From: Alcanivorax sp. 1008 | GTDB taxonomy: Bacteria; Pseudomonadota; Gammaproteobacteria; Pseudomonadales; Alcanivoracaceae | Direction: 5' to 3' | Length of the DNA stretch: 46,010 nucleotides | Assembly: GCF_020667895.1 (NCBI RefSeq) | Contig: NZ_JAFMPS010000016.1 | Span: forward strand, 1 to 46,010 | Shown here: in pieces, positions 991 through 11,130 of the stretch | Layout: each line of letters starts with the position of its first letter | Position numbering within the stretch: the first letter of the stretch is position 1 | The notes under the pieces: model-generated | The model's database searches: none | Seen by the model: only the letters and a program-made list of their open reading frames with translations | Told to the model about the DNA's origin: nothing | Translations under genes and position numbers: made by a program

Positions 991-1593
991 ATGCACGATA
1001 TTTCAGCGATCCGCGCCTTTTTGCCCTGTGCCACGCCGCAGGCATGGATCGATTGGGCGCTGCAGCACCCGGATATTGTGCTGATTGACCATGCCCACTG
1101 TGAAAAGAAGGCGGCCAGTACGGCCCTGAATCTGATGTTCCGCTATGTGGACCGCCCCGAACTGCTGGATGCGTTGAGCCAGCTGGCCCGTGAGGAGCTG
1201 CTGCACTTTGAGCAGGTGATCCAGCTGATGCGTCAGCGCGGTGTGCAGTACGACCATCTTTCGCCGTCCCGCTATGCGGCGTCACTGCGCAAGCAGATGC
1301 GCAACGATGAGCCGGGCCGGCTGGTGGATGTGCTGATCATTGGCGCGTTGATCGAGGCCCGTTCCTGTGAGCGCTTTGCCGCCCTGGCGCCGTTTGTTGA
1401 TGATGAGCTGGGCAAGTACTACCACTACCTGCTGAAAAGCGAGTCACGCCATTTCGAGGATTATCTGAAACTGGCCGAGCTGTATGCCGGCGAGGATATT
1501 TCTGCACGGGTGGCACAGTTTGTGGCGCTTGAGCAGGAGTTGATCGAGACGCCGGATACGGAATTCCGTTTCCATTCCGGCGTGCCGGCCTGA
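991..1593 (+). CDS. miaE: tRNA-(ms2io6A)-hydroxylase MiaE
   Basis: A 200-residue ferritin-like di-iron monooxygenase that hydroxylates the isopentenyl group of ms2i6A37 in tRNAs reading UNN codons. The ligand pattern of two EX(n)EXXH helix pairs is complete: Glu38, Glu69 with His72, Glu122, and Glu151 with His154. The ATG at 991 is preferred over an in-frame ATG at 964 because a purine-rich GGAG element lies 7-8 bases before it and the family homology begins there. A TATAAT hexamer at 945-950 could be a -10 box, but no convincing -35 was seen. The stop TGA at 1591-1593 directly abuts the stop of the convergent fusion gene. The length fits the Pseudomonas-type short MiaE. Confidence 0.93.
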   Translation: MHDISAIRAFLPCATPQAWIDWALQHPDIVLIDHAHCEKKAASTALNLMFRYVDRPELLDALSQLAREELLHFEQVIQLMRQRGVQYDHLSPSRYAASLRKQMRNDEPGRLVDVLIIGALIEARSCERFAALAPFVDDELGKYYHYLLKSESRHFEDYLKLAELYAGEDISARVAQFVALEQELIETPDTEFRFHSGVPA

Positions 1594-4500
1594 TCAGCTA
1601 GTGGTTGGCTCTGCGTTTTTCTTTGCCGCCGCTTCGGCGCGAGCTTGCTCAATAGAGGTGTAATCCACCTGAGTCAGAGCATCGTCCGGCAGCGCATAGC
1701 AGGTGCTGACCAGCGGGTGGTCATTCTCGAGTACTTCCGGGAAGCGTGCGCCCATAATTGGCTGCACCGAAAAAATCTCCTGCACCGAACCTTCAAAGCG
1801 CAGAAAGGCAACGGTTTCGCCGCTGACGATATTAACCACCCAGACGCCACATTGACGCGGCTCATCCCGCTCGGTCAGCGGCAGGCCGCTGAATATGGCG
1901 CTCTCACGCACCTGGCTCAGGCCGATAAAGGCGTAGTCACCAACAAAGTCCAGACCACGGGTAAAGCCGGGTAGTTTGCAAACGTGCTCCAGCTTGCCGC
2001 TGGCCAGATCCACCTTGCTCAGCGAGCCCTCACCGGATTCAAGCACCCAGAGTGTGTTGCGGTACCAGCGTGGCGAGTGGGGCATGGACAGCCCTTCGGC
2101 AATAATCCGGTTGTCACTGATATCCATCAGCAGGCCACCGTTGCGCTTGTTTTCACGCCAGCCGCCCTTGCTGTCAGTTTTACCAAGCATGGTGACATAG
2201 CGTGGTTTGCCATCACGCATGGCCAGGCCATTCAGGTGGCAGCGGTCTTCCGGTGCATAGGCGCTGACAAATGGTGGGCGCCACATGGGCACAAAGCTGT
2301 GGTCGAAATCGCGTACACACAGGCAAGAGAACCGGGTATTGACGAACCACAGCCGGTTGTCGCCATCGAAGGCCATTTCGTGGATGTCGATATCGCCGGT
2401 GATATGGGTCTGGCGTGGCACATATACGGCATCGTGCTTGGTGTCCGCCGGCAAAAACGGCGCCGCCGCCGGCATGTTTCTGAATTCCTGAATCTGGTTA
2501 AGCGAGCCCAGGGCAAACTTATTGATATCACCGCACAGCCCCATGGGCTTTCGGAACAGCTTGAAGTGGGTGTTGATCTGGTTGTCCTGCTGGCGGACCA
2601 CAATCAGCTTGCCGGCCTGATAGGTGGTCACCAGCAGACTGAACCCGCCCTGACGCAGTAGCGGGGGCAGGGAAGTGGTAAATACGGAGCTAAAATCCAG
2701 TGGTTCCTGGGTGTCCGTTGCCGAGCTGTCGTCGGGCTGGCTCATCGGCAGCTCTCCTTCTGTGCTGGTTGGTGTGGCAGCGGGTGCTGCGGGCTGCTCA
2801 AGTCCATGGATGCGTTGTTCAATCGGCTGCCAGATGTCGCGGCTGCTTTCGATATCACTTTCATGCTTGCGCCATTTGTCCGGAGACGGCGGCGTCAGGG
2901 TGTGTTGGGACAGCACATCACCCTTGGGGGCAGCGGGGGCATCGACGCCAATAAAGTCCCACAGCTGCTGCAATGTGCTCTCGGTGTCTTGGCACAGCTG
3001 CTGATAGCTGACCTGAGTCCAGTCATCATCCGCCAGTTGTTGCAGTTGGCTGAGAATGGTGTCGTTGGTGGTGGCCCACTGCCACGCGGCTATTTGTCCG
3101 GTGGGCTTATCTTTAAGGGCTTGCCAGCCGGGAGGCAGCAACAGCGACCAGGGGCGAGACCAGTCCGGCAGTTGGGGGTAGGTGACAAACCGGCCCGAAC
3201 CCCAGGCTTCGATAATGGAGGCAATATTCTCCTTCGGGTCGCGGTGCAGCCAGATAAATCGTGCCTTGGGGAAGGCTTTCTTCAGGAAGCCGATGCGCAG
3301 GGCATTCTTGGGCGTCTTCTCAAGAAAGCGAAAAGGTACCTTCGCCTGAACGGGTTCGCCCTGATGGGTGCGTAGCCCGGCCAGATAGTTAGCTTTTAGC
3401 TGTGCGACCACCGCCTCGCTGGCATCGTCGGCATCCAGAGCATTGTGCCAACGCTGGTTTTGCCGTGGGTTTAACGGACCGATGGACTCGATCTGACCAT
3501 GGCCTTCGCCGCCCAGTGTTAGCAGTCCAGCAGATTGGCTCAGGGTCTCGAACAGCCAGGAGCTGCCGCTGCGTGGCGCAGCCACGATAAATACCGGGCG
3601 GTCGAATAGCTCTTCTGGCTCTGGGGGGCGTGTCTGGCTTGCCGTTGTCGTCGCGGCTACTGGCGCTGGCGCCGCGGCAGCCGCTGCGGTAGCTACCGCC
3701 GGGTACACCAACGCCTGGCAGAGCATATTCTGAAGGCCCATTTTGTTGTTCAGGGCAAGCTCGGGCAGAGCTTTCACATCTTCGGCAAACTGGTCCCGGC
3801 GCTGTCGGTACGAGGCAACGGCAGGGTCGGGGCCATAGTGGCTCCATAGGCAGTGCCAGTCAGATATAAAGGCTTCTACCAGCGCTGATGCTCGCTGCGC
3901 CACCTCGTCCAGTGGGTTGGGCACATCCTTAAGGATACGTTCGCTCAAATAGCGCATCTCCCAGGGGGACATTACCTCGGGGGTGTTATAGCGCTCGGTG
4001 AGCAGGTTTGGCTCGATAGCCGGGTTCCACTGCATTACCGGGTCTGGCTGCCAGTCGCCTGCGGCGCCCGGTTGCGCAAGGCCTCGCGCTACCTGCTGCC
4101 AGAAATGGGCTGAGCCGGTGGTGTCCGCAACCAGATGGATGCGCCGGTCAGGGTGTGGGTTGAAGACGTTGTGCATGCGCCAGGTATCAAAGATCCACGA
4201 CTCGCCGGCGCGCATATGCACGTCCGCATCGCCACAGTGAAAGCGCACTGATTCATTGGTTTGGATGGGCACATGCAGGCGCACGCGCTGGTGCCAGTAA
4301 TAGTTGGCATCCATATGCCAGTTGGCCTCGGCATTGCCGTCGATGCGCATCAGGCGGGTGCGACCAAAGGTGGTGTTAAACGAGGCCAATACCTGATTCA
4401 GATAGGGCAGCGCCTGCAGGTTGGGCGTGGGCAGCATGGCACCACTGAGAGCGTCATCGCGAGAATTGCCATCGCGGGCAATCAGCAACAGCGCTGAATT

Positions 4501-4620
4501 ACCGGGAAAGCCTTGTGGGTGTGGATTCCAGGCGGACTCCGGGATCGCGTTCACTTCTTCACGCAGTCGCTCGGCATCGAACTGTGCAGGCAATCTGATA
4601 AAAGGGTGGGCTAACTGCAT
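1594..4620 (-). CDS. Three-domain protein: Asp/Asn beta-hydroxylase-like + sulfotransferase + TIGR03032-type beta-propeller-like domain
   Basis: 1008 residues. Residues 1-175 resemble aspartyl/asparaginyl beta-hydroxylases (Fe(II)/2-oxoglutarate enzymes): His102-x-Asp104, distal His150 and Arg160 in HPDRRIHLV. After an Ala/Pro/Thr-rich linker (about 307-333), residues 340-575 form a PAPS-dependent sulfotransferase with the 5'-phosphosulfate loop APRSGSSW (348-355) and a 3'-phosphate motif HRDPKENIAS (459-468). A second low-complexity linker (605-640) leads to a TIGR03032-type domain (640-990) of unknown function with repeated HEM(AF)DGDNRLW-like strands. No signal peptide is seen, so it is probably cytoplasmic. 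Homology starts at the ATG at 4620; an ATG at 4671 would add 17 residues without a clear ribosome site. An in-frame ATG at 2745 with a strong Shine-Dalgarno lies in linker 2. The neighbours are the two beta-helix proteins, so a role in modifying them is a reasonable inference only. Confidence 0.85.
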   Translation of the reverse strand: MQLAHPFIRLPAQFDAERLREEVNAIPESAWNPHPQGFPGNSALLLIARDGNSRDDALSGAMLPTPNLQALPYLNQVLASFNTTFGRTRLMRIDGNAEANWHMDANYYWHQRVRLHVPIQTNESVRFHCGDADVHMRAGESWIFDTWRMHNVFNPHPDRRIHLVADTTGSAHFWQQVARGLAQPGAAGDWQPDPVMQWNPAIEPNLLTERYNTPEVMSPWEMRYLSERILKDVPNPLDEVAQRASALVEAFISDWHCLWSHYGPDPAVASYRQRRDQFAEDVKALPELALNNKMGLQNMLCQALVYPAVATAAAAAAPAPVAATTTASQTRPPEPEELFDRPVFIVAAPRSGSSWLFETLSQSAGLLTLGGEGHGQIESIGPLNPRQNQRWHNALDADDASEAVVAQLKANYLAGLRTHQGEPVQAKVPFRFLEKTPKNALRIGFLKKAFPKARFIWLHRDPKENIASIIEAWGSGRFVTYPQLPDWSRPWSLLLPPGWQALKDKPTGQIAAWQWATTNDTILSQLQQLADDDWTQVSYQQLCQDTESTLQQLWDFIGVDAPAAPKGDVLSQHTLTPPSPDKWRKHESDIESSRDIWQPIEQRIHGLEQPAAPAATPTSTEGELPMSQPDDSSATDTQEPLDFSSVFTTSLPPLLRQGGFSLLVTTYQAGKLIVVRQQDNQINTHFKLFRKPMGLCGDINKFALGSLNQIQEFRNMPAAAPFLPADTKHDAVYVPRQTHITGDIDIHEMAFDGDNRLWFVNTRFSCLCVRDFDHSFVPMWRPPFVSAYAPEDRCHLNGLAMRDGKPRYVTMLGKTDSKGGWRENKRNGGLLMDISDNRIIAEGLSMPHSPRWYRNTLWVLESGEGSLSKVDLASGKLEHVCKLPGFTRGLDFVGDYAFIGLSQVRESAIFSGLPLTERDEPRQCGVWVVNIVSGETVAFLRFEGSVQEIFSVQPIMGARFPEVLENDHPLVSTCYALPDDALTQVDYTSIEQARAEAAAKKNAEPTTS
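2743..2759 (-). promoter_or_regulatory. Internal Shine-Dalgarno and ATG at the start of the TIGR03032-type domain
   Basis: On the minus strand an AAGGAG element (2759-2754) precedes an in-frame ATG (2745-2743) with 8 bases between them. This ATG is residue 626 of the fusion, inside the low-complexity linker just before the third domain. Initiation here would give a separate protein of about 383 residues. It could equally be a relic of a gene fusion. Confidence 0.4.
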
Positions 4621-4845
4621 GATTCCATTCGTTCCAGAGTGGGTTTGCAGAGGTTGGCATAGTGTGGCCACGGCCTCAAGTCAAAGTGGCTAATGATTTT
4701 ATGCATGGCGCACCGATTTGGAGCAGGCATTTAAAGTGCAATTTTTCCTTCAAGTCATCAGCCTATAGTGGTAGAACGGGTGTCGGGTAAACGCTTTGGC
4801 GAGCGCTTTGTCATTGATACTGATCAAAAAAAAGGAAATCAGAAT

Positions 4846-7185
4846 ATGAAAGCGGAAAAATCAGCCAGTCTTTTCCGGCTGCAGGCTCTGGCAGCAGCCA
4901 TTGGCCTCGCGTCCGGTGCCGCGCATGCGGTAGATCCGGTGGTAATCAGTCTAAACGATACCGGAGAGGGCACACTCCGTGAGGCTCTGTTCGAAGCCGA
5001 GAGTGATGAGGGGGTCCCCTCCACCATTACCTTCCAGGAAGGCCTGTCGGGAACTATTTCTCTGGAGTCTGCGCTGCCGCTTATCAGCGACACCACCATC
5101 ATTGAGGGTAGCGGTATTACTATCAAAGGGGCCCCTGCCGGTAATGTGGAGTTCCTCGATCGGGGCCCGAGATCAGAGGACGCGGTTATCAGGTTCTCCA
5201 CCAATAATGGAGACGATTTGACATTGCGTGGTCTCACCATTACCCGTGGTGTTGGCGGCGGCGTTTATGCATACCTTGGTGAAGGCGGCTCGTTGCTGCT
5301 CGAGGATGTGGTCATCACCAAGAACACTGGCAACTCTGCTGTGCTTGTGCGCGGTAACGGTAGTTTGGTACTGCAGGACAGCGTCATTTCTGGCAATAGC
5401 TACGAACTCTCCAGAGATATTCGAGCCAAAATGATTTACGGTTCTTATGGCGATGGCGCGGCCATCAATTCCAGATATGTCGATGTAGATGTGCTGGACT
5501 CCCAGATCATCGACAACACCGCCGGTGAAGATGGCGGTGGTATCCATGCCTATAATGGCAATGTCACCATTGAGCGCTCAGTGATTAGCGGTAACTCCGC
5601 GGGTGATGATGGTGGTGCTATTCTCCACGTTTCAGAGAGTGGGTCCGGCCTAGACCTTACTATCACTGACTCCACTATATCCGGGAATGTGGCCGGTGAT
5701 AACGGAGCGGGTATCTTCTTCAGGTCTTATTACGGTGGAGAGCTGCAAGTTCTCAACTCTTCAGTGATTGGCAACCAATCAAATTCTGATGGCGGTGGCA
5801 TCGACTTTTCGACTGGCCAAAGGTACGAAGGTACTTTCCGGCTGGAAAACTCTGTCGTTAAAAACAATAGTGCAGAATCTGATGCCGGTCTTCGCATCAG
5901 GTCTGAATCAGTGGAGATTATCTCTAGCCTGATCGAAGGCAACACGGCAAGCGAGAGCAATGGTGCTTTTGATCTCAATGCCGATAGCTTGACGATCTCC
6001 CGTTCTACGATTACCGGAAATAAGGCTCCTAGTAGAGCCATCGGTGACATTGATGCTCATTACTATTTTGGTGGTTCAGACTTTTCCATCGAAAGCACTA
6101 CGATCAGTGGGCACTCCAGCAATGAGGGCTCTGCGCTGGATGTCAACGCTGGTTACTCGGGCAGCATAGTAATTGAAAACTCGACGGTTTCTGGTAACAC
6201 TGCGCGCGACCCCGTGATTGAGTTCGAGTCGAGCTCCTACTCCGGCGCCGACCTCGATATTAATAACTCTACCTTCTCTGGCAACCGAAGCACCGCAGCA
6301 CCTTCGGCGATTCAGGTGAGTGGTTTTGATGCAAGCATCACCCACTCGACCTTTGTCGATAACAAGGCTGTGGCCTCGGCGCTCTTCCCGTCGTCTGCGC
6401 AGCTTAGCCTGGTGCATACGAATGAGAGCTCGCGATCAGGTAATTTGACGAACTCAATCTTTACCTCAAACAATGATGCTGAAGTCATTGTTGGAGGTGG
6501 CGAGTTCAATGACGCCTATTCCTATGGCAGCGTCTCAGCGGAACTCAACACTGTGATTATGACCAACGGTGTTCAGGTCAGTGAGGGTGGTTCTACAGAG
6601 GGGACGCCTGATGAAGTTGATCCGCTGTTAGCGGATCTGGGATACCGTGGGGGCTTCACTCTGGTGCATGAGCCGCTGCCGGGTAGTCCGGCAATCGATG
6701 CTGGCGGTGAGGGCACGCGCCCGGATGATCGTGATCAGCGTGGCTTGGTCGGTAGCTTTGGCAGTGGTGCAAACTCTGACCTGGGTTCCGTCGAAGTGGT
6801 CAGCAACACGCCGCCTCGCTTGGTCGTCAATTTGAGCAAGCAAATTGACGGTGTGCTGGGTGCCGAAATTCCGGCGATTAGCGTGGCCGATGCCTTCGTT
6901 GATGATGAGGAAGATATTATCAGCGTTGTTGAGGTGTCTGGCCTGCCGTCCGGTCTTTTCTATGAAGGTGGAAATATTAGCGGCACTCTTGATGCGGTCG
7001 GTACATTCGCCGTGACGGTGATCGTGACTGACGACAACGCCCAGCCACTAGAGGCGGTGGAGCAGTTTGATGTGACTATCAGTGAGAAGAAGAGCTCCAG
7101 CGATAGCGAGTTTCTGGGTAGTGTTCCTGCCGGGTTCCTGGCGCTGCTGAGCTTTATGGCAATACTGAGACGTCGTTATAGTTGA
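4846..7185 (+). CDS. Secreted right-handed beta-helix protein with choice-of-anchor-Q-like and Ig-like domains and C-terminal sorting-like tail (copy 1)
   Basis: 779 residues. A Sec signal peptide (residues 1-28, ending ASGAAHA) is followed by a CSLREA-like N-terminal cap (NDTGEGTLREAL). Residues about 115-590 form a beta-helix whose coils alternate GG(G/A)I and ISGN/ITGN-type turns, like Pmp-type and other parallel beta-helix surface proteins. Residues about 600-660 carry the choice-of-anchor-Q signature GSPAIDAG...DDRDQRG. Residues 665-747 look like a dystroglycan/cadherin-type Ig fold. The end has a Ser-rich spacer, a hydrophobic stretch (GFLALLSFMAIL) and the basic RRRYS tail, the layout of CTERM sorting signals. 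The ATG at 4846 is chosen for its AAGGAA site and the signal peptide. It is a tandem paralogue of the next gene and ends at a strong terminator. The function is unknown; surface display or adhesion is inferred. Confidence 0.88.
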   Translation: MKAEKSASLFRLQALAAAIGLASGAAHAVDPVVISLNDTGEGTLREALFEAESDEGVPSTITFQEGLSGTISLESALPLISDTTIIEGSGITIKGAPAGNVEFLDRGPRSEDAVIRFSTNNGDDLTLRGLTITRGVGGGVYAYLGEGGSLLLEDVVITKNTGNSAVLVRGNGSLVLQDSVISGNSYELSRDIRAKMIYGSYGDGAAINSRYVDVDVLDSQIIDNTAGEDGGGIHAYNGNVTIERSVISGNSAGDDGGAILHVSESGSGLDLTITDSTISGNVAGDNGAGIFFRSYYGGELQVLNSSVIGNQSNSDGGGIDFSTGQRYEGTFRLENSVVKNNSAESDAGLRIRSESVEIISSLIEGNTASESNGAFDLNADSLTISRSTITGNKAPSRAIGDIDAHYYFGGSDFSIESTTISGHSSNEGSALDVNAGYSGSIVIENSTVSGNTARDPVIEFESSSYSGADLDINNSTFSGNRSTAAPSAIQVSGFDASITHSTFVDNKAVASALFPSSAQLSLVHTNESSRSGNLTNSIFTSNNDAEVIVGGGEFNDAYSYGSVSAELNTVIMTNGVQVSEGGSTEGTPDEVDPLLADLGYRGGFTLVHEPLPGSPAIDAGGEGTRPDDRDQRGLVGSFGSGANSDLGSVEVVSNTPPRLVVNLSKQIDGVLGAEIPAISVADAFVDDEEDIISVVEVSGLPSGLFYEGGNISGTLDAVGTFAVTVIVTDDNAQPLEAVEQFDVTISEKKSSSDSEFLGSVPAGFLALLSFMAILRRRYS

Positions 7186-7236
7186 TGTCTTTCCCGCAAG
7201 GGTAATAAAAAAGGGCCTGATATCAGGCCCTTTTTT
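6643..7236 (+). repeat. Near-identical 3' repeat block, copy A (partner at 9176-9771)
   Basis: From codon 600 of beta-helix copy 1 through its terminator, the DNA is nearly the same as the matching stretch of copy 2. I count roughly 30 substitutions over about 590 bases and no indel within the coding part (constant offset 2533). Upstream of this point the paralogues differ much more. Confidence 0.9.
7207..7236 (+). terminator. Rho-independent terminator, copy 1
   Basis: A perfect 18-base palindrome GGGCCTGATATCAGGCCC (7213-7230) is flanked by six A (7207-7212) and six T (7231-7236), 21 bases after the stop codon of beta-helix copy 1. The symmetry would let it work in both directions. The same element follows copy 2. 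Confidence 0.92.
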
Positions 7237-7387
7237 ATGAGCAGCGCCGGCACATTGCAATCGAATAACTGAAGAAACCGGGTTTTGCCTTTATCTCGAC
7301 AGTTTAAGCTGGTAGAAAAAGATTCGTTCCAACGGCTTTGCGGCCGGTTGTTCATTGATCAGGGTCATAAAAAGAGGAAAAAATAGT

Positions 7388-9718
7388 ATGAAAGGAGATA
7401 AATCAATCAGTCTTTTCCGAATGCAAGCCTTGGCAGCAGCCATTGGTCTGGCATCTGGTGCCGCTCATGCGGTCAATCCTGTGGTCACCAATCTGGATGA
7501 CACCGGGCCGGGCTCTTTCCGGGATGCGTTGGAGGCTGCTAATAACGACGAAGGCGCCGCGTCGACACTGACCTTCGCGGAGGGTCTGTCAGGCAATATC
7601 TCACTTCAGTCGTCGCTGCCGCCGATTAGCGACTCTTTGGAGATCATTGGTACTGGCATCACCGTTCGAGGCGGGCCAGACGTTGAGACCGCCGTAATTC
7701 AGTTTTTCGCTGAAAACGAAGAGACCTTCATAGTGCGAGGGCTATCCATTACTGACGGTGTTGAAGGCGGTCTGTATGCGTATCTTGACGGCGGTTCACT
7801 GCTGCTGGAGGACGTGGTCATCACTAACAATAGCGGAGGCCCTGGCATCGAGGTGCGTTCCGGTGATGTGGATGTTGTAAATAGCGTTATCTCAGGTAAC
7901 AGCAATCAGGTCGGTCCAGATGGACGCTATGGTGATGGTGGGGGCATCGATGCCAGATATGTGGATCTGGAAGTAGTTGGCTCCCAGATTACTGATAATG
8001 TTGCCGGGAGCCGGAGTGGTGAAGGTGGTGGTATTAATGTTCGCTACGGTTCACTGCTAATTGAAACCTCGGTGATCGACGGTAACACCGCAGGCCGTCG
8101 CGGTGGCGGTATTCGCCTGAATCAATATCAAGATGGGGAACTGACGGTTGTTGATTCCAGGATTTCTGGCAATGTCGCTGAGAATGGTGCCGGCATTAGT
8201 CTCTATTCATATGGAGGGGGTGACCTGGAGGTTCGTAACTCCTCCATTACCGGGAACCGCGCTGAGTCCTCGGATGATGGATATATAAAGGGGTTGGTTA
8301 AGAGAGGTAGTACCGCCGGAGGTGGTATCGAGTTCTACAGCGGTAGATATAGCGAGGGCTCTGTTCTGCTGGAAAACGCTGTAATCAAAAATAATAGCGC
8401 GGACTCTGCTGGCGGTCTGCAAATATCTTCTGAGTCGGTAGATATCGTCTCCAGCTTGATCGAGCAAAACAGTGCATCCGAAAGTAATGGTGGCTTTAGT
8501 ATTCGCGCCAATAGCTTGTCAATTTCCCAGTCTACGGTTACCGGGAATAGCGCGCCGGAAGGAGCTGCGGGTGAGATCTTCTCCCACTCGGAGTCCAGCG
8601 ACGGAATGTCTATCGATAGCAGCACTATTAGCGGTCATTCCAGTAACGATGGAAATGTGCTGAGTGTTAGCACCGGGGACTATGGATATATTGCCATCAG
8701 CAATTCGACAATTTCCGGTAACACGGCGCGAGATGCTGTGGTGGTGATAGGGGCAAGTCGTGACAACTACTCCTCCATTGATATTTCGAATTCCACGTTT
8801 TCAGGCAACAAAAGCACCAGTGCGCCCGCAGCCATCGAGTTGACTAACAACGATATTACGGTCATTCATTCGACCTTTGTGGACAACAAAGCTTCCAGTT
8901 CAGAGCTTTTCGATACGTCAGTGCAGTTAAGTATTCTGGACACAGATGAAGGTACCACCTCGGCGCAGTTGGTTAGGTCGGTATTCACTTCTGGCAATGA
9001 TGCTGAGGTGCAGATTGGCGGCAGTCAATTCGATTTCTATGAGGGTTACAGTTCGGGTTACAGCGTAAGTGCGGATTTTAGTACAGTAATTATGGCTAAT
9101 AACGTTGCAATTTCGGAAGGGAGTAGTAGCGAAGGAACGGTTACTGTGACTGATCCGCAGTTGGCGCCTTTGGGGTATCGTGGCGGCTTCACTCTGGTGC
9201 ATGAGCCGTTGCCGGGCAGTCCGGCAATCGATGCTGGCTCTGAAGGCTCGCGCCCGGATGATCGTGATCAGCGTGGTTTGGTCGGTAACTTTGGCAGTGG
9301 TGGAAACTCTGACCTGGGTTCCGTCGAAGTGGTCAGCAACACGCCGCCTCGCTTGGTCGTCAATTTGAGCAAGAAAATTGACGGTGTGCTGGGTGCCGAA
9401 ATTCCGGCGATTAGCGTGGCCGATGCGTTCGTTGACGATGAGGAAGATATTATCAGCGTTGTTGAGGTGTCTGGCCTGCCGGCTGGTCTTTTCTATGAAG
9501 GTGGAAATATTAGCGGCACTCTGGAAGCGGCCGGTACATTCGCCGTGACGGTGATCGTGACTGATGACAACGCCCGGCCACTAGAGGCGGTGGAGCAGTT
9601 CGCGGTTACTATCCCGGAGAAGAAGAGCTCCAGCGATAGCGAGTTTCTGGGTAGTGTTCCTGCCGGGTTCCTGGCGCTGCTGAGCTTTATGGCAATGCTG
9701 AGACGTCGTTATAGTTGA
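7388..9718 (+). CDS. Secreted right-handed beta-helix protein with choice-of-anchor-Q-like and Ig-like domains and C-terminal sorting-like tail (copy 2)
   Basis: 776 residues, the same architecture as copy 1: a nearly identical signal peptide (ending LASGAAHA), cap (DDTGPGSFRDAL), a long beta-helix rich in ISGN, ITGN and GGGI turns, choice-of-anchor-Q motif GSPAIDAG, Ig-like domain, and the tail hydrophobic stretch plus RRRYS. The beta-helix has diverged clearly from copy 1, with local insertions such as DGYIKGLVKRGS, whereas the last 180 or so residues are almost identical. The ATG at 7388 is preferred over a start at 7355 because it opens the signal peptide and has a GAGG element upstream. 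The 5' flank shares short blocks (GGTAGAA, TTCATTGAT) with that of copy 1, so the duplicated unit included the leader. No outer-membrane autotransporter barrel is present. Function unknown. Confidence 0.88.
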   Translation: MKGDKSISLFRMQALAAAIGLASGAAHAVNPVVTNLDDTGPGSFRDALEAANNDEGAASTLTFAEGLSGNISLQSSLPPISDSLEIIGTGITVRGGPDVETAVIQFFAENEETFIVRGLSITDGVEGGLYAYLDGGSLLLEDVVITNNSGGPGIEVRSGDVDVVNSVISGNSNQVGPDGRYGDGGGIDARYVDLEVVGSQITDNVAGSRSGEGGGINVRYGSLLIETSVIDGNTAGRRGGGIRLNQYQDGELTVVDSRISGNVAENGAGISLYSYGGGDLEVRNSSITGNRAESSDDGYIKGLVKRGSTAGGGIEFYSGRYSEGSVLLENAVIKNNSADSAGGLQISSESVDIVSSLIEQNSASESNGGFSIRANSLSISQSTVTGNSAPEGAAGEIFSHSESSDGMSIDSSTISGHSSNDGNVLSVSTGDYGYIAISNSTISGNTARDAVVVIGASRDNYSSIDISNSTFSGNKSTSAPAAIELTNNDITVIHSTFVDNKASSSELFDTSVQLSILDTDEGTTSAQLVRSVFTSGNDAEVQIGGSQFDFYEGYSSGYSVSADFSTVIMANNVAISEGSSSEGTVTVTDPQLAPLGYRGGFTLVHEPLPGSPAIDAGSEGSRPDDRDQRGLVGNFGSGGNSDLGSVEVVSNTPPRLVVNLSKKIDGVLGAEIPAISVADAFVDDEEDIISVVEVSGLPAGLFYEGGNISGTLEAAGTFAVTVIVTDDNARPLEAVEQFAVTIPEKKSSSDSEFLGSVPAGFLALLSFMAMLRRRYS

Positions 9719-9771
9719 TGTCTTTCCCGCGAGGGTAATAAAAAAGGGCCTGATATCAGGCCCTTTTTTTT
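9176..9771 (+). repeat. Near-identical 3' repeat block, copy B (partner at 6643-7236)
   Basis: Second copy of the block covering the choice-of-anchor-Q motif, Ig-like domain, C-terminal tail, stop codon and palindromic terminator. The two stop codons and downstream sequence (TGATGTCTTTCCCGC) are the same, so the similarity runs past the coding end. Confidence 0.9.
9740..9771 (+). terminator. Rho-independent terminator, copy 2 (probably bidirectional)
   Basis: The same palindrome GGGCCTGATATCAGGCCC (9746-9763) with an A tract before and eight T after (9764-9771). It sits between beta-helix copy 2 and the convergent oxygenase gene that ends at 9785, so it could terminate both transcripts. Confidence 0.92.
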
Positions 9772-9784
9772 GGCGCAGGTTTGG

Positions 9785-10396
9785 TTAGCGGTCGACCACC
9801 ATATTGAAGGCAATCGAGATGCGCGGCTTCTCCCCATAGTAGGGCGCAACCATATGGGTCAGGAAGGACGGGAATAGCAGCATTGTTCCGGCGGTGGGCT
9901 TGTAGCCAGTGGCAGGGGGGCGCTTCCACTCTCTGCCGAGCGGTAATGGATCAAAGAAAAGCACCTGGCCATCCAGTGAGTTCTGGTCGCTATCCTTGCC
10001 AGGCTCTCCCGCATCTACGTAAAAAACACCGGACCAAGTACAGGGGAGGTGCTCGTGTGGTGCATTCCAGTTGCCCCGGTAGTTGATGTTGGCCCATGCC
10101 GCAACCATGCGAATTTCTTTATACGGGCGGTCGTCTTCGAAGCTTTTTATAATGTTGGTGGCCACCTGAAGAATCCGGTGCATTAGCCACTTGCTGTCTG
10201 GGTGCTCGGTGAGGTGCAGGGTATCGCTGGAGTGCCAGCCGCCCTGATTGCTTCGGGTTATACCCTTGTCTTGATCCTTCAGGCGATAAAGATGTTGGGT
10301 GATTGATGGCGCTCGCGAGGAAAAATTGGGCAGCTTCTTTTCGTAGATCGGGATGCCGAAATGCCAGCGTGCGGTAACCGAACTTTTGCCACTCAT
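9785..10396 (-). CDS. TIGR02466-type putative Fe(II)/2-oxoglutarate oxygenase
   Basis: 203 residues resembling the 2OG-FeII_Oxy_5/TIGR02466 family, whose substrates are unknown. Visible family features are Asn111, His114-x-His116 followed by SGVFYVDAG, then LLFPSFLTHMV with distal His181, and Arg192 in PRISIAFN, which would hold the 2-oxoglutarate carboxylate. No signal peptide is seen. The start overlaps the stop of lpxH by four bases (ATGA), so translation is probably coupled and the gene is the last of the ppiB-ppiA-lpxH operon. It faces beta-helix copy 2 tail to tail across the shared terminator. With the hydroxylase domain at 1594-4620 it is the second putative oxygenase next to the beta-helix pair. 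Confidence 0.85.
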   Translation of the reverse strand: MSGKSSVTARWHFGIPIYEKKLPNFSSRAPSITQHLYRLKDQDKGITRSNQGGWHSSDTLHLTEHPDSKWLMHRILQVATNIIKSFEDDRPYKEIRMVAAWANINYRGNWNAPHEHLPCTWSGVFYVDAGEPGKDSDQNSLDGQVLFFDPLPLGREWKRPPATGYKPTAGTMLLFPSFLTHMVAPYYGEKPRISIAFNMVVDR

Positions 10397-11130
10397 TGGA
10401 GTTCTCCGATGGGGGATTCAATCAAGTTGTTGCCTTGGTGATCAGCGATGATAAACCATAGGGTATCGTTCCAGTCGCCCAGGACATAACGCTTCCCCGG
10501 GCCACTGGCGGTTTCAATGTCATGTACTGCCGGACGGTGAGTGTGGCCATGAATCATGTCTTTTACTGCGGCTTCATCTAATACGCGAAGTACTTCTGCA
10601 GGCGTCACATCCATGATGTTGTCCGCTTTGTTGGCATTGCCTTGCTGGCTCTGCATGCGCATGAACTGAGCGATCATGCGGCGTTCCTGTAAAGGTTTTG
10701 CCAGCATATCTTTTTGCCACGCTTCGTTGCGTACCATGGCCCGAAACTGCTGATATTTTTCATCCATGGTGCAAAGGCTATCACCGTGCAATAGCAGGGT
10801 GGGGCGACCATACAGGTCGACTACCGTGCCTTCGGCGAGCAGTGCGCCACCGCAGCGCTGGGCGAATTGTTCGCCGAGCATAAAGTCACGGTTGCCGTGC
10901 ATGAAATAGAGCTTGCCACCGGCGTCACTAAAGCGTCGGAATATGGCTTCGGCGCTTAGGTTGAACTCTGCATCATCGTCATCGCCGATCCAGGTCTCAA
11001 ACAGGTCGCCGAGCACATAGAGTGCTTCGGCTTTGCCCGCGTGCTCGGTGATCAGAGCATCCAGCGCATTCAGGTGGCGTGGGCGGGTGCTGTCCAGATG
11101 CAGATCGGAAATGAACAGGGTGTAACTCAT
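10393..11130 (-). CDS. lpxH: UDP-2,3-diacylglucosamine diphosphatase LpxH
   Basis: 245 residues, the normal LpxH length. The enzyme hydrolyses UDP-2,3-diacylglucosamine to lipid X and UMP in lipid A synthesis at the cytoplasmic face of the inner membrane. The calcineurin-like metallophosphoesterase signature is complete: D9-x-H11 (SDLHL), GD at 41-42, GNRD at 79-82, HGD at 115-117 and HGHTHRP at 194-200. The start overlaps the end of ppiA by four bases and its stop overlaps the next gene by four bases, so it lies in the middle of a tightly coupled operon, as the ppiB-lpxH pairing often does in gammaproteobacteria. Confidence 0.96.

Follow-up and report, generated by a model that had tools for sequence, protein, structure and literature searches.

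A four-gene block between miaE and lpxH

The stretch of DNA analyzed here, hereafter the window, comprises 46,010 nucleotides of Alcanivorax sp. 1008 (contig NZ_JAFMPS010000016.1). Positions 1594-10396 form a discrete block of four genes: a three-domain fusion gene, two genes for beta-helix proteins and a gene for a TIGR02466-type oxygenase. The third domain of the fusion, known as DUF4915 or TIGR03032, is the part that tracks with beta-helix genes in other bacteria. An earlier note on this DNA had described two tandem repetitive exported proteins between the fusion and the TIGR02466 gene; all four genes are confirmed, and the export is predicted from sequence. The features of the block and its flanks are as follows.

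1594..4620, minus strand: fusion gene, 1008 amino acids (aa), with Asp/Asn-hydroxylase-like, TPST-like sulfotransferase and DUF4915/TIGR03032 domains (from Pfam and TIGRFAM scores)
4120..4428, minus strand: PF05118 match, residues 82-184 of the open reading frame (ORF), with conserved H119, D121, H167 and R177
2941..3597, minus strand: PF13469 match, ORF residues 359-577, with conserved PRSG (366-369), E389, R477 and S485
1729..2670, minus strand: PF16261/DUF4915 match, ORF residues 668-981, a beta-propeller by model
4846..7185, plus strand: beta-helix protein 1, 779 aa, with signal-peptide-like start, choice-of-anchor-Q (anchor-Q) domain and C-terminal hydrophobic-plus-Arg tail
7388..9718, plus strand: beta-helix protein 2, 776 aa, laid out as protein 1 and 66% identical to it
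9785..10396, minus strand: TIGR02466 putative Fe(II)/2-oxoglutarate (2OG) oxygenase, 203 aa, with an H-x-H...H motif
991..1593, plus strand: miaE, left edge of the insertion site, a flank outside the system
10393..11130, minus strand: lpxH-like gene (named from a reading of the sequence), right edge of the insertion site, a flank

The block is an insertion between miaE and lpxH. Among 34 same-family genomes that carry both genes on one contig, the site is empty in 22, with a gap of 66-279 bp; the gap measures 2.2-4.5 kb in nine and 8.8-13.9 kb in three. The three large gaps belong to Alcanivorax sp. 1008, to a second species of the same genus (L092) whose gene order is identical, and to the family member L013, where the fusion and the TIGR02466 gene are accompanied by three beta-helix genes and another DUF4915 gene. 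The nine mid-sized gaps (G005, G008, G012, G013, G016, G019, G022, G025 and G030) hold a different insertion: in the four that were fetched, it encodes an exported-looking protein of 788-901 aa (L167, L168, L171) or two other genes (L169). In a Rhodanobacteraceae bin (L059:9992-12598), a DUF4915 gene adjoins a pair of peptidyl-prolyl isomerase-like and lpxH-like genes, as in the Alcanivorax family.

Since the block adjoins lpxH and an LpxL-like gene, its enzymes might be thought to act on lipid A or some other lipid of the envelope. The flanks in Alcanivorax sp. 1008, L092 and L013 fit this idea, as does the breadth of PF05118, which includes the lipid A hydroxylase LpxO. Yet miaE and lpxH are neighbors without the block in the 22 genomes with an empty site, and at the other fusion loci viewed by eye the fusion has no lipid A genes as neighbors. 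We therefore rejected a lipid A role as highly improbable, the neighborhood being only positional.

Domains of the block proteins

The ORF of the fusion as listed opens at 4671, and aligned homologs begin at its residue 18 or 20. The protein scores above the cut-offs of PF05118 (47.2 bits, cut-off 22.6), PF13469 (86.8, cut-off 27), PF16261 (430.1, cut-off 35) and TIGR03032 (418.6, cut-off 251.5). A search with it scored 7994 candidates, 2621 of them with E <= 0.001, and each of the best 120 of these 2621 matches contains all three Pfam domains. The PF05118 domain carries the Fe(II)/2OG motif H-x-D...H with its Arg; the PF13469 domain carries the binding loop for 3'-phosphoadenosine-5'-phosphosulfate (PAPS) and the Arg and Ser that contact the 3'-phosphate. 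None of the conserved residues listed above for these two parts varies among the 25 aligned fusions, and E389 presumably corresponds to the catalytic Glu of protein-tyrosine sulfotransferases (TPST), judging from the profile alignment. The remark of the earlier note that the motifs for iron, 2-oxoglutarate and PAPS appear intact holds for the fusion, but not for the TIGR02466 protein, whose H-x-H departs from H-x-D/E. APS (adenosine-5'-phosphosulfate) kinase, which is required for PAPS, is present in 3/3 genomes, yet also in 11/14 controls. At one further locus (L014:12985-14343), two genes follow the fusion: one of 220 aa for which Pfam has no match, and one that by eye is sulfotransferase-like.

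Compared with solved structures by sequence profile, the sulfotransferase domain is nearest to the CurM sulfotransferase (E 1.8e-15) and to the protein-tyrosine sulfotransferases (TPST1, 5.7e-13), and the hydroxylase domain appears akin to amino-acid and peptide hydroxylases (L-proline cis-4-hydroxylase, 9.6e-11). The latter resembles the Asp/Asn beta-hydroxylases of PF05118 in its match above cut-off and in its conserved H-x-D...H and Arg; unlike these relatives, it is fused to a sulfotransferase and DUF4915, and among solved structures the enzymes nearest to it in sequence hydroxylate free proline. The best comparison for the sulfotransferase is RaxST of Xanthomonas, described in PMC9372746 as a TPST-like, PAPS-type enzyme without a membrane anchor that is predicted to act on its protein substrate, RaxX, before secretion. 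RaxST is not fused to a hydroxylase and DUF4915; moreover, RaxX is a small peptide, whereas the partner here is a large beta-helix protein and the block has no peptide exporter gene.

Both beta-helix proteins have one match each to the choice-of-anchor-Q family NF041518 (42.8 bits for protein 1 and 47.0 for protein 2, cut-off 25), while a Pfam scan of the two found no beta-helix family above cut-off. We assign the beta-helix fold from an AlphaFold2 model of protein 2 (mean pLDDT 77; between residue 30 and about 540 the values are mostly 80-95, apart from a dip at 290-310), which matches beta-helix proteins in Foldseek searches. One of these matches, at E 3e-3, is structure 9cdv of Rhombotarget A (RbtA), which PMC12643943 describes as a beta-helix surface protein of Acinetobacter baumannii; the likeness is one of fold. 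Export of both proteins is predicted from an N-terminal signal-peptide-like stretch, and each ends in a hydrophobic stretch plus Arg. Neither tail matches GlyGly-CTERM (TIGR03501), MYXO-CTERM or IPTL-CTERM, and a GlyGly-CTERM identity was rejected. This is a further difference from RbtA and from the relatives L097-L099, which have GlyGly-CTERM tails above cut-off; one L013 protein has a MYXO-CTERM tail and L022 an IPTL-CTERM tail. Rhombosortase (TIGR03902) is found above cut-off in 5/5 genomes and in 0/14 controls; in Vibrio cholerae the rhombosortase route delivers proteins to the cell surface (PMC6219818).

Pairing of DUF4915 with beta-helix genes

A contig scan with the fusion alignment supplied the 79 best loci: 52 with a parsed DUF4915 domain, 26 with the hydroxylase-sulfotransferase pair but without DUF4915, which serve as an internal control, and one unparsed. 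Neighbors were called beta-helix genes by motif density or with an anchor-Q profile that had been built up from the Alcanivorax sp. 1008 block, a rule that was devised after a first look at the same loci. L035, where the anchor gene is merged and a beta-helix-like ORF overlaps the match, was omitted from the adjacency and receptor counts.

A beta-helix gene lies directly beside the anchor gene at 18/52 DUF4915 loci versus 0/26 control loci (Fisher p 3.4e-4). The pairing falls off steeply with distance: at the DUF4915 loci, beta-helix genes account for 21/94 of the immediate neighbors, 3/80 at the second position, 2/75 at the third, 1/65 at the fourth and 1/194 at the fifth to eighth, compared with 0/68 immediate neighbors at the controls. 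For distance 1 against distances 4-8 (2/259) p is 2e-11, a value that can only be a guide because the loci are not independent. At genome level, NF041518 matches occur in 49/56 genomes included for their DUF4915 (a search that took in 50 of 53 DUF4915 loci, all but L021, L067 and L084), in 9/26 control genomes and in 0/14 standard genomes, sets that are not matched for kinship. In a quick tree built from 76 DUF4915 domains, of which 25 have a beta-helix gene next to them, at least 18 changes are required to account for adjacency, which hence is not one inherited accident, although many branches are weak; domain architecture requires at least 13. The beta-helix pairing is therefore real and specific to DUF4915. 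The earlier note had asked for co-occurrence in other genomes as a check, and its proposal survives that comparison.

It could be argued that these genes are neighbors by chance, or general cargo of an accessory island, without working together. Anchor-Q genes are indeed common in some genomes, one of which has as many as 93 matches, and the block is an insertion. Several results make this explanation improbable: the steep drop with distance, the absence of the pairing from the control loci, the number of changes on the weakly resolved tree, and the surroundings of TIGR02466. The TIGR02466/PF13759 protein of Alcanivorax sp. 1008 scores 87.1 bits (cut-off 62.5), and matches occur in 19/114 relatives; the neighborhood check covered matching genomes other than G054, G055, G058, G085, G092 and G096. 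Close relatives with 42-96% identity to it (L092, L013, L097, L098 and L099) each adjoin an anchor-Q gene. In five same-family genomes with only three to five anchor-Q matches each, 6/6 TIGR02466 genes above cut-off do so, three of them without a fusion: at L097-L099, the TIGR02466 and anchor-Q genes lie on stretches that lack a fusion, and DUF4915 finds no match in G026 and G031, the genomes to which these loci belong. A distant member in L022 (26%) also adjoins a beta-helix gene. Under the name TIGR02466, the literature search returned a cyanophage genome only.

The pairing of the complete hydroxylase-sulfotransferase-DUF4915 fusion with beta-helix genes recurs in distantly related bacteria. 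Outside Actinobacteria the two are immediate neighbors in Alcanivorax sp. 1008, L092, L013, L014, L015 (called by motif density only), L018, L022 (with two adjacent beta-helix genes), L058 and L081. In 396 genomes of the phylum of L058, with at most two candidates scored per genome, two new loci came to light: in L166 a beta-helix gene directly adjoins a sulfotransferase-DUF4915 gene, and in L165 it lies three genes away. Elsewhere, a fusion in Nocardioides (L085) stands beside another exported-looking protein, and the contig of L084 is too short to judge adjacency. The metagenome bins of L021, L067 and L081 carry labels (Bifidobacterium breve, Klebsiella pneumoniae) that look wrong; the domains of L021 and L067 are almost identical to those found at Microthrix-type loci.

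An independent class sample of 369 genomes, again with at most two candidates scored per genome, yielded matches in 28 genomes; a second full-length fusion was not among them. By eye, the class-sample loci L145, L149, L151 and L152 adjoin long repeat or autotransporter-like proteins, and the controls L157 and L158 have a beta-helix-like neighbor that the rule missed.

DUF4915 as a putative docking propeller

DUF4915 is modeled as a beta-propeller, and fold searches with it gave no functional lead beyond that fold; the literature search found nothing under either of its names, nor under choice-of-anchor Q. The YWTD propellers of LRP6, LDLR and nidogen share about 9-15% identity with it and are extracellular animal receptors; the common fold shows no common function. 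Among 79 DUF4915 genes in the loci examined, 55 are standalone by the test applied, 11 are hydroxylase-sulfotransferase fusions, five are sulfotransferase fusions and eight contain a tetratricopeptide repeat (TPR)-glycosyltransferase motif, with a ninth such case (L142) cut by a contig end. Pfam recognizes TPR in 5/5 of the TPR-glycosyltransferase fusions tested, and Glyco_transf_9 above cut-off in L026 and L146, below it in L144 and L156, and not in the cut L142. Only 2/1279 other genes carry the TPR-glycosyltransferase motif, both near DUF4915. In L153 the domain is fused to Acetyltransf_1 (5e-12), and in L150 a family 41 glycosyltransferase gene lies between two DUF4915 genes. Because modules predicted to be modifying enzymes replace one another on the same propeller, next to surface-type proteins, we read DUF4915 as a docking module, and the pattern suggests that surface-protein-modifying enzymes have it in common.

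Two observations concern the surroundings of these genes. In L026 (6616-16906), five tandem beta-helix genes surround the DUF4915-TPR-glycosyltransferase gene; their proteins start with a common motif near V-x-A-A-W-D/N/E-S and have no evident signal peptide. A family of about 170 aa without Pfam assignment occurs near DUF4915 at nine loci (L035, L038, L043, L049, L051, L055, L059, L063 and L093); a GNAT identity was not upheld, Pfam being silent for L043, L059 and L093 and weak for L038 (E 0.032).

The control loci have a partner of their own. A TonB-receptor-like gene, recognized by a sequence pattern, lies no more than three genes away at 11/26 of them (L027, L029, L040, L041, L050, L054, L056, L069, L071, L073 and L088, often with TPR proteins) versus 0/52 DUF4915 loci. 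The pattern was widened once, which raised the control count from 6/26 to 11/26 and left the DUF4915 count at zero both times. These loci are perhaps a second surface-protein modification system; by title, the literature search found nothing on topic that combines sulfotransferase, TonB-dependent receptor, hydroxylase and tetratricopeptide.

For the block itself, the explanation that we favor, at about even odds, is that its enzymes act in the cytoplasm to hydroxylate and sulfate the beta-helix proteins prior to their export, a substrate and chemistry that we infer. Directly shown are the domains with their conserved motifs, the occurrence of the block as a unit at a site that is vacant in relatives, and the repeated pairing of the genes. 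In this model, the DUF4915 propeller would hold the beta-helix polypeptide before export, and the hydroxylase domain would add hydroxyls to side chains, with Asn or Asp of the repeated turns as the most plausible targets. The TPST-like domain would then move sulfate from PAPS onto the new hydroxyl or onto Tyr, and the TIGR02466 protein may contribute a second oxidation. The finished protein would leave by way of its signal peptide and be retained at the surface by its predicted C-terminal tail.

Several results weigh against this model. No strict beta-helix neighbor is found at 34/52 parsed DUF4915 loci, nor beside the actinobacterial fusions L016, L017, L019, L020 and L021, which count as one case because their sequences are near-identical. 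Strict adjacency in the class sample is only 3/16 DUF4915 loci versus 0/8 controls, too few to separate the two on their own. TIGR02466 has H-x-H...H plus Arg in 11/11 aligned members instead of the canonical H-x-D/E, and no beta-helix neighbor is seen at eleven loci with more distant TIGR02466 members (L100-L110, including two on short contigs). Finally, Tyr enrichment was sought in the beta-helix partners of the fusion and none was seen. The earlier suggestion that these enzymes modify the beta-helix proteins or an attached surface component is partly supported: the gene pairing stands; the lack of Tyr enrichment and the non-canonical iron motif count against it.

An alternative is that DUF4915 itself is the partner of exported repeat proteins, as a binding factor or as an enzyme in its own right, and that the hydroxylase-sulfotransferase acts on something else, for example a glycan or another outer-membrane protein. 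The domain carries invariant His, Arg, Asp and Glu residues of its own; the 55 standalone genes include some beside beta-helix genes; and the pair without DUF4915 accompanies TonB-receptor-like genes. Against this stand the three domains in one chain beside beta-helix genes across several phyla, and the nature of the other modules found on DUF4915, which are likewise predicted to be modifying enzymes. We consider this alternative rather unlikely. The wider proposal goes beyond the block: DUF4915 would be the docking propeller of cytoplasmic enzymes that decorate beta-helix or repeat proteins before they reach the surface, with hydroxylase plus sulfotransferase, TPR-glycosyltransferase and acetyltransferase as swappable modules. 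The product here would be a beta-helix that carries hydroxyl and O-sulfate groups, perhaps in the form of sulfated beta-hydroxy-Asn or -Asp; we know of no example of such a modification. We put this proposal forward tentatively. By title, no on-topic literature was found on gene clusters of beta-helix, sulfotransferase and hydroxylase genes.

With these results, DUF4915/TIGR03032, a family present in several phyla, has a predicted fold, a genomic partner that recurs, and a proposed role that can be tested. Should this role prove true, bacterial surface-protein sulfation would extend past the known case of RaxX, and a single propeller would direct modifications of several kinds to adhesin-like beta-helices.

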